From assembly GCA_019456145.1 (NCBI GenBank), contig VRUL01000001.1, forward strand, positions 310,001 through 374,000: a DNA stretch of 64,000 bases, read 5' to 3'. Below, piece after piece: positions 13,004-19,098 of the stretch; position 1 is the first letter of the stretch, and every line of letters starts with the position of its first letter. This DNA comes from Planctomycetota bacterium (lineage in GTDB: Bacteria > Planctomycetota > Phycisphaerae > Sedimentisphaerales > Anaerobacaceae). The position numbers and the translations under genes are program-made. Under the pieces are notes generated by a model. The model was given only the letters and a program-made list of their open reading frames with translations, searched no databases and was not told the DNA's origin.

Positions 13004-13088
13004 TTATTGATTATTCGTTAAAAATAATTTAACATATTCGGTGTAAACCGGTAATCAAACGTGATTAATCAATTATTAAGGTGTGCTG

Positions 13089-13592
13089 ATGGCTCCAAAA
13101 TTTGTAAGAGCGGTTTTCCCCGGCTCCTTTGACCCCATTACAAACGGGCATTTGGATGTGATAACACGGGGTGTCAAGCTTTTTGACGAGCTTATCATTG
13201 CCGTCGGAAAAAGCCCGGTAAAGAACCAGCTCTTTACTCCTAAAGAGAGGGTGGAGATGATAGCCGAGCTCATAACAGATATGCCTGGCGTCTCGGTTGA
13301 GAGTTTCGATGGGCTGACCGTTGAATATGCTGCTAAAAAAAAGGCGGATGTCATCCTCAGGGGACTGCGAAGCCTTACAGACGTTCAGTATGAGTTCCAG
13401 CTTGCTATGACAAACAGGGCCGTGGCGGGAATAGAGACTATATTTGTTATGACAAGCGAGCAGTACGGCTTCACCAGTTCCACACTCATTCGACAGATTG
13501 CTTCGCTGGGAGGTAACCTTTCAAAACTCATTCCGGAAAATGTCCATAATCGGTTACAGCAGCACCTTAAAAAAGGCGATAGAAAATCTTGA
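13089..13592 (+). CDS. coaD: Phosphopantetheine adenylyltransferase
   Basis: 167-aa enzyme of coenzyme A synthesis that transfers AMP from ATP to 4'-phosphopantetheine. The nucleotidyltransferase motif GSFDPITNGH sits near the N-terminus. ILRGLRSLTD and the C-terminal STLIRQIASLGG are typical of CoaD. I prefer ATG 13089 because AAGGTG lies just upstream; GTG 13083 would add two residues. The next gene starts 22 bp downstream on the same strand. Confidence 0.93.
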   Translation: MAPKFVRAVFPGSFDPITNGHLDVITRGVKLFDELIIAVGKSPVKNQLFTPKERVEMIAELITDMPGVSVESFDGLTVEYAAKKKADVILRGLRSLTDVQYEFQLAMTNRAVAGIETIFVMTSEQYGFTSSTLIRQIASLGGNLSKLIPENVHNRLQQHLKKGDRKS

Positions 13593-13614: not shown

Positions 13615-13986
13615 ATGTTGACAGTTAGTGTTGAAACCTGCTTTTGGGCATCGCACCAGTTGACCTTAAAGGACGGCTCGAAGGAGCCTCTCCACTCGCA
13701 TAACTTCTCGGTTAAAGCTGAGATCAGCAGTAACGCCGTAAGCGATATGGGACTCGTTATGGACTTTCGAACACTCAAGGCGATGCTCGATAATATCGTC
13801 GCTGAGTTTGATAATAGGATATTGGACAGCTTAGAGTATTTTAGGCAGAACAACTCCACGGCCGAAAACGTAGCAAAGCACATTTACAGGAAACTTCAGC
13901 CCGGAATACCAAAAAACGTCAAACTTGAAGCTGTCAGGGTTACCGAGGAGCCGGGCTGTGCGGCAAAATTCACCGGGCCGATTTAG
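13615..13986 (+). CDS. 6-pyruvoyltetrahydropterin synthase family protein, PTPS-III-like
   Basis: 123-aa protein of the PTPS/QueD fold, starting at ATG 13615. Zinc ligands are His14 (ASHQL), His27 and His29 (LHSHNF). QueD enzymes have a catalytic Cys in CxxxHGH. Here the motif is E24-P-L-H27-S-H29, matching the ExxHxH pattern of PTPS-III enzymes, which replace dihydroneopterin aldolase in folate synthesis. Late TEEPGCAAKF is also family-like. Assignment to PTPS-III is inference; a divergent QueD is the alternative. It follows coaD closely and may be cotranscribed. Confidence 0.75.
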   Translation: MLTVSVETCFWASHQLTLKDGSKEPLHSHNFSVKAEISSNAVSDMGLVMDFRTLKAMLDNIVAEFDNRILDSLEYFRQNNSTAENVAKHIYRKLQPGIPKNVKLEAVRVTEEPGCAAKFTGPI

Positions 13987-14213: not shown

Positions 14214-14744
14214 ATGCAGTGTCAAATTTGTAACAAAAACGATGCGACTATTCACCTGACCGAGATTGTTGATGGTGTACGCTCCGAGATGCATATTTGC
14301 GAAAATTGCGCACAGGACCAGGGCATAGCCGTCAAGAGTCAGATTCCCTTAAATGAACTGCTCAGCAGTCTCCTTGCCGTCCAGCCGACAGACGAGGAAT
14401 TGTTCGGCCCGTCAGAGAAAATGACCTCGACATCATGCTCGAACTGTGGCTTTACCCTGGACCAATTCAGAAAAGAGGCCGTTCTGGGTTGCCCCTATGA
14501 TTATGAGGTTTTTGAGAAACCGCTTCGCCGACTGATAAAAAAAGCTCAAAACGGAAAAACTACTCACTGTGGAAAAGTACCTTCGAAGACCTCCGTGGGC
14601 ACAAAAAAGCAAATGAAGCTTATTACACTCAAGCAGCGCCTCGATGAGGCCCTGCAAACCGAAGATTACGAGCTGGCGGCGAAATTGCGGGACAAAATAA
14701 AAAAGTGTGAAACCCAAAGTAAAACAACAGATAAAAAAATATGA
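14214..14744 (+). CDS. mcsA: McsA-like zinc-finger protein with UVR motif
   Basis: 176-aa partner of the arginine kinase McsB. Two treble-clef-like zinc pairs are visible: CQIC and CENC at the N-terminus, then CSNC with GCPYD further on. A linker leads to a C-terminal UvrB/UvrC-type helical motif (LKQRLDEAL...EDYELAAKLRD). The stop overlaps the start of mcsB by 4 bp (ATGA), implying translational coupling. In Firmicutes McsA activates McsB and helps control CtsR; neither ctsR nor clpC is adjacent here. Confidence 0.88.
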   Translation: MQCQICNKNDATIHLTEIVDGVRSEMHICENCAQDQGIAVKSQIPLNELLSSLLAVQPTDEELFGPSEKMTSTSCSNCGFTLDQFRKEAVLGCPYDYEVFEKPLRRLIKKAQNGKTTHCGKVPSKTSVGTKKQMKLITLKQRLDEALQTEDYELAAKLRDKIKKCETQSKTTDKKI

Positions 14745-15871
14745 AGCTCACCGATCTAAGTAATGACATAAACGAATGGTTCAGCGGCTCCGGACCATTG
14801 GCCGATATCGTTATTTCCTCAAGGATTCGACTGGCAAGAAACCTGGCCGGATACAAATTCTTGTCCCGGTGCTCGAATGCTGAAAAATCTCAATTGCTTA
14901 AGAAGCTCAGAGACGTCCTGATGTCACTGGAGCTTGGTGAGAAAGTCTTTTATATCAGCGTCGACCGGGCACCGGTTCTCAACAGGCATTTCCTGGTGGA
15001 GAGGCATCTTATCAGTCGCCACCATGCCTTCGGAAAGGGACCCAGAGGCGCAGTTATCGCGGAGAAGGAGTTTTTCACCGCGATGATTAACGAGGAAGAC
15101 CATCTGAGAATCCAGGTCCTAAAAGGCGGACTCCAGCTCTCTAAATGTGCCGAGCAGATAAATCACATCGACGATATGATTGAGCAGAAGGTCAGCTATG
15201 CTTTCAGTCCTCGTTATGGATACCTCACGGCCTGCCCGACAAATCTCGGAACCGCAATTCGGGTCTCCGTAATGCTGCATCTGCCGGCTTTGAAGATAAC
15301 CGGCCAAATTGAGAAGTTCTTCAACGCCGCAAAGGATATGAACCTCGCAGTCAGGGGGCTCTTTGGGGAAGGAACAGAGGCCGCTGGAGATTTCTATCAG
15401 ATATCGAATCAGGTAACACTTGGCATCTCGGAGTCGGATATTATCACGCAGTTTGAAAACGTCATCATCCCTGAAATTGTCGACTATGAAAACGCCGCAA
15501 GGAATCAACTGCTCTCAGAGCAGATGGACCTTCTTGATGATAAAATTTCCCGGGCGATGGCCCTGTTACGAAATGCACATTTGATTAGTTCACAGGAGGC
15601 CTTGTTCCTGCTCAGCCATTTGCGGTTGGGTTTGAATATGTGCGAGAATATGGGGGCTTCCAGTCCTGTCATTGATACGCTTTGCAAGCACACCCGGCAG
15701 GGAAACAAGGCAGATAAGCGCCAGGGAATTTCAATTGCCACAATAAACAGGCTCTTTATGCTGACTCTGCCGGCACACTTGCAGCTAAACTATGGAAAAA
15801 GCCTGGATGCTACCCACAGAGACGCACTCCGGGCACAAATTATCCGCTCCGCCCTTAACCAGGGATTATAG
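14741..15871 (+). CDS. mcsB: Protein arginine kinase McsB
   Basis: 376-aa ATP:guanido phosphotransferase that phosphorylates protein arginines, marking proteins for ClpCP degradation in known systems. The ATP-binding SSRIRLARN motif lies near the N-terminus. The phosphagen-kinase signature CPTNLGT lies mid-protein. The C-terminal RDALRA fits the RDxxRA motif that binds phosphoarginine allosterically. It overlaps mcsA by 4 bp. A hairpin with a T run (15995-16025) lies downstream. Confidence 0.92.
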   Translation: MKLTDLSNDINEWFSGSGPLADIVISSRIRLARNLAGYKFLSRCSNAEKSQLLKKLRDVLMSLELGEKVFYISVDRAPVLNRHFLVERHLISRHHAFGKGPRGAVIAEKEFFTAMINEEDHLRIQVLKGGLQLSKCAEQINHIDDMIEQKVSYAFSPRYGYLTACPTNLGTAIRVSVMLHLPALKITGQIEKFFNAAKDMNLAVRGLFGEGTEAAGDFYQISNQVTLGISESDIITQFENVIIPEIVDYENAARNQLLSEQMDLLDDKISRAMALLRNAHLISSQEALFLLSHLRLGLNMCENMGASSPVIDTLCKHTRQGNKADKRQGISIATINRLFMLTLPAHLQLNYGKSLDATHRDALRAQIIRSALNQGL

Positions 15872-18475: not shown

Positions 18476-18919
18476 TTGAAACTACCAATGCAAGCTATAA
18501 TCTACGCAAGCCCCCTATTCAGCCTAACTTGCCAACCAATTATGACAGTAATTATGCAAAACGAACCCAATTTCACGGATGACCAAATGAACGTAAATAA
18601 AGTAATAACAAAACATTATGAAGATAATTCCAATTGGGCACTTGGCCAAAACGAACCCAATACGAACCCAAACAAAGCCAATTTCAAACGGGGGCACTTA
18701 CTCATCGACCGAATGAACCGGATTTGTTGTCTTTGCGGCTTTTCTGTATCGCTCGACACTGCCAAAATGGCACTATATAAGAACAATTTGGAATTTGAAA
18801 AAGGGCGGCAAAAAAACCTTAACCTCTTAAGATACAAGAGGTTAAATAGCTCCGCCCTGCTCGGCCCACTAACTGGCACGCTTTTTGCATATTCATATAA
18901 TGAGAAATATTGGACTTAG
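18476..18919 (+). other. Repeat-derived reading frame with QNEPN/NEPN motifs
   Basis: An open frame of 147 codons lacks a ribosome binding site and contains MQNEPNFTDDQMNV, then GQNEPNTNPNKANF. I recall similar NEPN-rich translations scattered in related planctomycete genomes, so it is probably a dispersed DNA repeat that happens to stay open. The preceding TTTAGGATTTAGATATTAGGATTT is a simple repeat. I do not call it a gene. Confidence 0.4.
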
Positions 18920-19098
18920 AGCTTATCCGAATAACCGGGTCGTTATGAGGACGAGCGAAAAGTTCGAGGCCAAGGCGGCAGGCCAAAAATGCTCGGAGGC
19001 GTGGTTTTCTCCACGTTGAGAACATTTTTGACCGACAACGCAGGCATCGGGCTTTGCAGCCGGCCGCAATAGAGCGGGTTATTTGGATAGGCTCTTAA
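18916..19098. repeat. Snap-back element with imperfect terminal inverted repeats
   Basis: Left arm TTAGAGCTTATCCGAATAAC (from 18916) pairs with the right arm ending GGATAGGCTCTTAA (to 19098), allowing one bulge and two mismatches. The interior is GC-rich with further pairing. It lies directly before the dnaK leader. The right flank AGGCTCTTAAATAGCT matches the flank of the element at 3992-4132. Confidence 0.6.

Follow-up and report, generated by a model that had tools for sequence, protein, structure and literature searches.

A PTPS-family protein without the Cys-Asp-His triad alternates with FolB in a planctomycete order and probably replaces it in folate synthesis

We identified P0001, a short gene in the window (the whole stretch of 64,000 nucleotides that was analysed), as a candidate replacement for FolB in a planctomycete. 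Judging from sequence comparison, we put the probability at roughly 0.85 that its product is a PTPS-fold pterin enzyme that depends on zinc and stands in for FolB in folate synthesis. It is probably a PTPS-III-like variant, a dedicated aldolase that would rely on zinc and a glutamate to make 6-hydroxymethyl-dihydropterin. The computed support consists of residue conservation, the loss of Cys and Asp-His, a FolB that is undetected in the host genome, a strict alternation of the two genes among related genomes and an empty slot where P0001 would lie. A more far-reaching account, to which we would give even odds, is that P0001 dropped the whole Cys-Asp-His triad and works with zinc and one glutamate as a dedicated dihydroneopterin-type aldolase, free of the 6-pyruvoyl or 6-carboxy side reaction, and that it was repeatedly swapped for FolB within the lineage, the slot between coaD and mcsA being left cleanly empty.

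Table 1. Features of P0001 and its neighbours, in positions of the window.
Feature	Position	Strand	Remarks
coaD-like gene (PF01467)	13083..13592	+	Conserved upstream neighbour
P0001, PTPS-family gene	13615..13986	+	Proposed FolB replacement; complete ORF, 123 aa plus stop
His14 codon	13654..13656	+	Predicted Zn ligand; identical in 72/72 orthologues
E24-P-L-H27-S28-H29 motif	13684..13701	+	E24, H27 and H29 in 72/72; Gly at position 28 in 4/72
D66-N67	13810..13815	+	Position of the missing Asp-His dyad; opposite DH of QueD and PH0634 in the alignment
Glu84 codon	13864..13866	+	Predicted pterin-binding Glu; identical in 72/72
Glu111 codon	13945..13947	+	Predicted pterin-anchoring Glu; 72/72, and 141/141 in a wider set
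mcsA-like gene (UVR motif)	14214..14744	+	Conserved downstream neighbour
mcsB-like gene (ATP:guanido phosphotransferase, PF00217)	14741..15871	+	

An earlier note, made from the DNA letters, had assigned the gene to the PTPS family, and the Pfam model PF01242 agrees (100.4 bits, cut-off 22.4); its coordinates, strand and frame are correct, and the start of P0001 aligns with the starts of its relatives. Residues 23-29 read K23-E24-P25-L26-H27-S28-H29. The position of the QueD cysteine, four residues before the first motif histidine, is therefore taken by Lys23, so that the cysteine is absent, and Glu24 lies at -3. The same note had described both features, and they extend to the relatives: among 72 full-length orthologues of the order (leaving out G010, G065 and a second, split copy in G037), Cys at position 23 occurs in none, and His14, Glu24, His27, His29, Glu84 and Glu111 are identical in all, which shows that the motif of P0001 is not due to chance. 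Glu24 is the candidate base and His27 and His29 are predicted zinc ligands, and Ser28 stands at a free position; for Glu84 and Glu111 we assume the pterin roles of the positions known from PTPS structures. The earlier note was right that Ser replaces Gly in EPLHSH. Its suggestion that this sets P0001 apart as a special class does not stand, because position 28 varies freely within the order (16 different residues, with Gly in 4/72). A point absent from that note is the loss of the catalytic Asp-His, which in E. coli QueD lies in LDHHYL and which by alignment corresponds to D66-N67 in P0001; the pair survives in one of the 72 orthologues (G028). The mark of the P0001 group is thus the joint loss of Cys and Asp-His, with the zinc ligands and Glu24, Glu84 and Glu111 invariant.

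The same pattern is found beyond the order. From elsewhere in the phylum we retrieved 62 of the strong relatives, including all 12 that co-occur with FolB. Cys is present in 36, all of them with CExxHGH and Asp-His; the remaining 26 have neither Cys nor Asp-His, and 22 of these keep the glycine. Over the whole planctomycete survey, Asp-His is found in 37/37 Cys-bearing sequences against 1/98 Cys-less ones. The most economical reading has Cys and the dyad disappear jointly, with the constraint on the glycine relaxed afterwards, within the order. In a tree with few columns and many open forks, for which a random 28 of the order rows were kept along with P0001 and G001, 59 planctomycete Cys-less sequences group together amid Cys-bearing ones (SH-aLRT 93, not starred). 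Loss of the dyad is not confined to this clade, nor is it general among ExxHGH proteins, as two Aquificota sequences have ExxHGH without Asp-His and the archaeal PH0634 has ExxHGH with it; for the Plasmodium PTPS 1y13 the match ends at profile position 68, so that Asp-His is not readable from it. We also examined 19 lower-scoring PTPS sequences, in which the Asp-His pair is present in 19/19 and Cys was read in 18. Six of them, the weaker matches sampled from FolB genomes, all have both Cys and Asp-His.

The fold points to the PTPS family as well. The AlphaFold model of P0001 (input: P0001 and six loci) has a pLDDT of 89.3, and its closest solved fold is PH0634 of Pyrococcus (Z 17.6, rmsd 1.7, 114 aligned), followed by E. 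coli QueD (Z 16.7), Plasmodium PTPS (Z 13.6-13.8) and the DHNA-type T-folds (Z about 9-10). FolB (PF02152) is not among the two Pfam families that match P0001 at E up to 1. The best-scoring NCBIfam model is QueD, at 65.6 bits below its cut-off of 89.25, and 6PTHBS likewise stays below its own (62.9 bits, cut-off 125.5). Read by strict motifs, Lys23, Ser28 and Asn67 depart from the CxxxHGH plus Asp-His of QueD and PTPS-I, the stretch holds no Cys for the CxxxxxHGH of PTPS-II, and EPLHSH departs from the ExxHGH of PTPS-III. P0001 does have the PTPS fold, three predicted zinc-binding histidines, Glu at -3 and no Cys at -4, as PTPS-III would have, and FolB is, judged by distribution, absent and replaced; clustering with folate genes is not seen, the flanks being coaD-like and mcsA/mcsB-like. 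The nearest named relatives are metagenome-assembled Phycisphaerae, with up to 75% identity. A search of plasmids returned 172 records, all below 60% identity; the best 15 of these are 34-35% identical, and the annotated features among the matches listed are mostly queD.

The strongest argument for replacement is the distribution of P0001 and FolB in the order, for which we sampled 107 genomes with a completeness of at least 85%. P0001 as query matches 79 of them. Four (G033, G085, G090, G102) were not counted as P0001-type, their only match being a two-domain paralogue, nor was G001, whose short PTPS has CExxHGH. This leaves 74 genomes with a P0001-type gene (among them contig-end fragments in G010 and G065, and a gene with an in-frame stop in G030), 23 with FolB, none with both and 10 with neither (Fisher p 6.5e-16, uncorrected for relatedness). 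Counted by genus (n=62), the figures are 47, 11, 0 and 4. Both states are present in four of the six families, and when FolB was shuffled among genera within families, the mean was 7.9 co-occurrences and zero was reached in 0/20000 shuffles. With CoaD serving as proxy for the host phylogeny, the best tree has 8 state changes; this tree is poorly resolved, and the well-supported branches yield 2 independent pairs, both in the expected direction. Thus, the PTPS-III-like bypass of FolB put forward in the earlier note gains support from comparison, with folB undetected in the host genome and co-occurrence in 0/107 genomes.

The locus tells the same story. P0001 lies downstream of what is presumably coaD and upstream of genes that we take to encode McsA and McsB. 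Folate genes and queuosine genes are not seen adjoining it in the window. The P0001-type gene is at most 372 bp from coaD in 64 of the 74 genomes, on another contig in nine and 6.1 kb away in one. Among 33 related loci (including the look-alike pairs L003/L010 and L005/L016, seemingly from the same genomes), a coaD homologue is found in 32, mcsA in 32 and mcsB in 31, and with a P0001-type gene the distance from coaD to mcsA is 479-813 bp (31 loci, the look-alike pairs again included). Of the 23 FolB genomes, 21 have a CoaD match. In 17 of these, coaD and mcsA share one stretch with a gap of 55-380 bp and PTPS is missing; a sensitive profile search of these 17 gaps detected no PTPS remnant (best E 1.2). 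Another four, all from a single genus, have coaD on a stretch without mcsA or PTPS and do not bear on the slot, so that the count rests on the 17. Since the gaps are short and free of remnants, genomes with FolB cleanly lack the P0001-type gene at a single conserved position. Which of the two events, FolB gain or PTPS loss, came first is something that we infer. Elsewhere in the window, positions 18476-18925 have a counterpart in L004 (12185-12676) with 74-78% DNA identity, possibly a dispersed repeat of the lineage.

Some genomes of the order carry neither gene. In G055 and G056, which belong to one genus (L245, L263), the coaD-mcsA slot is cleanly empty with a gap of 82 bp and FolB is undetected; missed genes could be involved, or a third route, for which the transaldolase-type candidate suggested in PMC1971073 may be considered. 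G003 has the same empty slot and undetected FolB, is nested in a FolB-bearing genus and is split into 660 contigs. As for the other seven, G025, G046, G081, G085 and G102 are also without a CoaD match, and in G029 and G068 mcsA is not shown on the stretch. G001 is peculiar in another way: besides FolB and a second PTPS, it has an additional one with CExxHGH (L109, 160-525) that scores 97 bits against the QueD cut-off of 89.25.

In the wider phylum, FolB matches occur in 74 of 294 sampled genomes, three of them being urate oxidases. FolB and a strong short PTPS are found together in 12 of the 294. Together with G001, these rule out a general exclusivity of FolB and short PTPS. All 12 PTPS are CExxHGH with Asp-His, indicating that FolB tolerates the hybrid enzyme, and as all 13 co-occurring PTPS are CExxHGH, exclusivity still holds for the Cys-less type within what was read: no case of FolB together with a Cys-less PTPS was found among the sequences read across order and phylum. 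Three genomes with a Cys-less gene do give an apparent FolB match, which passes the Pfam cut-off in G373 and stays under it in G248 and G389; all three matches proved to be urate oxidases. Urate oxidases (PF01014) do match the Pfam FolB model (L286 963-1856, L287 724-1584, L288 584-1582), and one of them exceeds the curated FolB cut-off (34.9 vs 31.8 bits), an annotation trap. Regarding folB itself, in the FolB genome G032 of the order (L214, 3064-5168) genes for GTP cyclohydrolase I, folB, HPPK and a QueC-like protein lie in a row, and in two distant genomes (L207 3317-4878, L215 2796-4456) folB has a short-chain dehydrogenase gene on one side and an HPPK gene on the other, an arrangement that suggests a folB-folK cassette.

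How might such an enzyme work? FolE would provide 7,8-dihydroneopterin triphosphate, which P0001 would bind through Glu84, Glu111 and the three-His zinc site. Instead of the PTPS cysteine, Glu24 could then be the base for a retro-aldol cleavage of the side chain, and the resulting 6-hydroxymethyl-7,8-dihydropterin would pass to FolK and FolP. We propose that the Cys-Asp-His triad was lost as a unit because this cleavage does not need that relay, leaving a dedicated aldolase that would lack QueD-type activity. The chemistry, the substrate (triphosphate, monophosphate or dihydroneopterin), the product and the roles of single residues are put forward here as proposals.

Planctomycetes carry methanopterin-linked C1 enzymes, and the pterin made by P0001 might go into tetrahydromethanopterin or some other pterin cofactor instead of folate. 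In archaea, PTPS-III members take part in methanopterin synthesis (PMC5041015). However, the P0001-type gene alternates with FolB, whose product is a folate intermediate, and the later folate enzymes are common in the order: HPPK is present in 102/107 genomes and DHPS scores above cut-off in 97/107 (undetected in 8/107, with one further match far below cut-off). We therefore regard a role outside folate as improbable, although folate and methanopterin roles may share one product, which makes this alternative partly compatible with FolB replacement.

The host genome (5.73 Mb) encodes folE, HPPK (folK), DHPS (folP) and QueC. FolB was undetected in it by a search that was positive in 10/14 control genomes; being 94.7% complete, the genome does not allow the absence of a gene to be taken as proof. 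It has two PTPS matches, P0001 and the two-domain paralogue. The latter (265 aa, with the PTPS match confined to residues 139-264 in the C-terminal half) is encoded on contig C6 directly downstream of the GTP cyclohydrolase I gene (folE), and it keeps CxxxxxHGH and Asp-His. The search of the full genome for folB and queD that the earlier note had recommended thus ends with folB not detected and this paralogue as the likelier queD. The same note held that a separate folB plus clustering with queuosine genes would argue for another role, and neither was found. As a side observation, the HPPK match (G000:C12:33498-33878) lies in a frame of 375 codons, roughly 360-400 codons in many relatives, which suggests a fusion with a second domain.

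Could P0001 itself be the QueD of the host, a 6-carboxytetrahydropterin synthase with an altered active site? The QueD model does score best among the NCBIfam models, and the genome has QueC, but that score is under its cut-off and Cys and Asp-His are lost. Distribution speaks against it too. In the order, QueC scores above 100 bits in 20 of the 23 FolB genomes, and each FolB genome has one PTPS (except G001 with two and G087 with none), located in a frame of 258-445 codons like that of the two-domain paralogue; in the eight FolB genomes in which this type was read, Cys and Asp-His are intact in 8/8. With QueC usual in these genomes and the sole PTPS two-domain-like with an intact triad, the two-domain PTPS is the likelier queuosine enzyme, despite bearing the PTPS-II motif of PMC5041015. 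On residues, model score and distribution, we reject the QueD role for P0001 as very unlikely. A decaying or non-catalytic paralogue, as the missing classic triad and the freely varying HGH glycine and dyad positions might suggest, is barely credible for a gene kept in 74/107 genomes with its zinc ligands, Glu24, Glu84 and Glu111 identical in 72/72, and we reject it as well.

FolB replacement by a PTPS in planctomycetes is not new in kind. PMC5041015 describes PTPS-III enzymes (ExxHGH) that act in folate synthesis, hybrids bearing CExxHGH and strict-motif annotation; in PMC2229834, Plasmodium PTPS has Glu-38 in place of Cys and releases 6-HMDP, which E38C abolishes; and PMC4674097, citing earlier work, reports that many bacteria, Planctomycetes among them, have no folB. 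Our search of the literature on planctomycete folate and PTPS/DHNA, with subscription literature mostly outside its coverage, found no description of a Cys-less, dyad-less clade or of the alternation with FolB, and one on the catalytic triad found nothing relevant. As PTPS paralogues replacing FolB are already known, the advance lies in the variant and in a sharper test rather than in a new pathway. The swaps between P0001 and FolB amount to a natural experiment in which the residue requirements of an aldolase-type PTPS can be tested. Moreover, strict ExxHGH matching misses the whole clade, and the NCBIfam QueD and 6PTHBS models both leave P0001 below cut-off. Finally, P0001 suggests a route to folate in the folB-less planctomycetes of this group.

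Among known systems, the FolB dihydroneopterin aldolase (PF02152) holds the pathway place that we propose for P0001, and it is a distant T-fold relative; it belongs to a different sequence family, and its mechanism is metal-free. PTPS-II (CxxxxxHGH) is of the same family, its motif being borne by the two-domain paralogue, whereas P0001 is without the Cys and has another spacing. QueD and PTPS-I (CxxxHGH) have the fold and the zinc site in common with P0001, which has lost their Cys and Asp-His. PTPS-III (ExxHGH; Plasmodium and the bacterial and archaeal FolB bypass) resembles P0001 in the Glu at -3, the three conserved histidines, a FolB undetected in the genome and the proposed product 6-HMDP. 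P0001 differs from it in having Ser for Gly and no Asp-His, the dyad being kept in the ExxHGH protein PH0634. Finally, the PTPS-I/III hybrids (CExxHGH) have the same Glu and zinc site, and the planctomycete ones surround the Cys-less group in the tree. Unlike P0001, they keep Cys and Asp-His (37/37 read) and coexist with FolB in 13/37, a share to be read knowing that all known co-occurrences were fetched on purpose.
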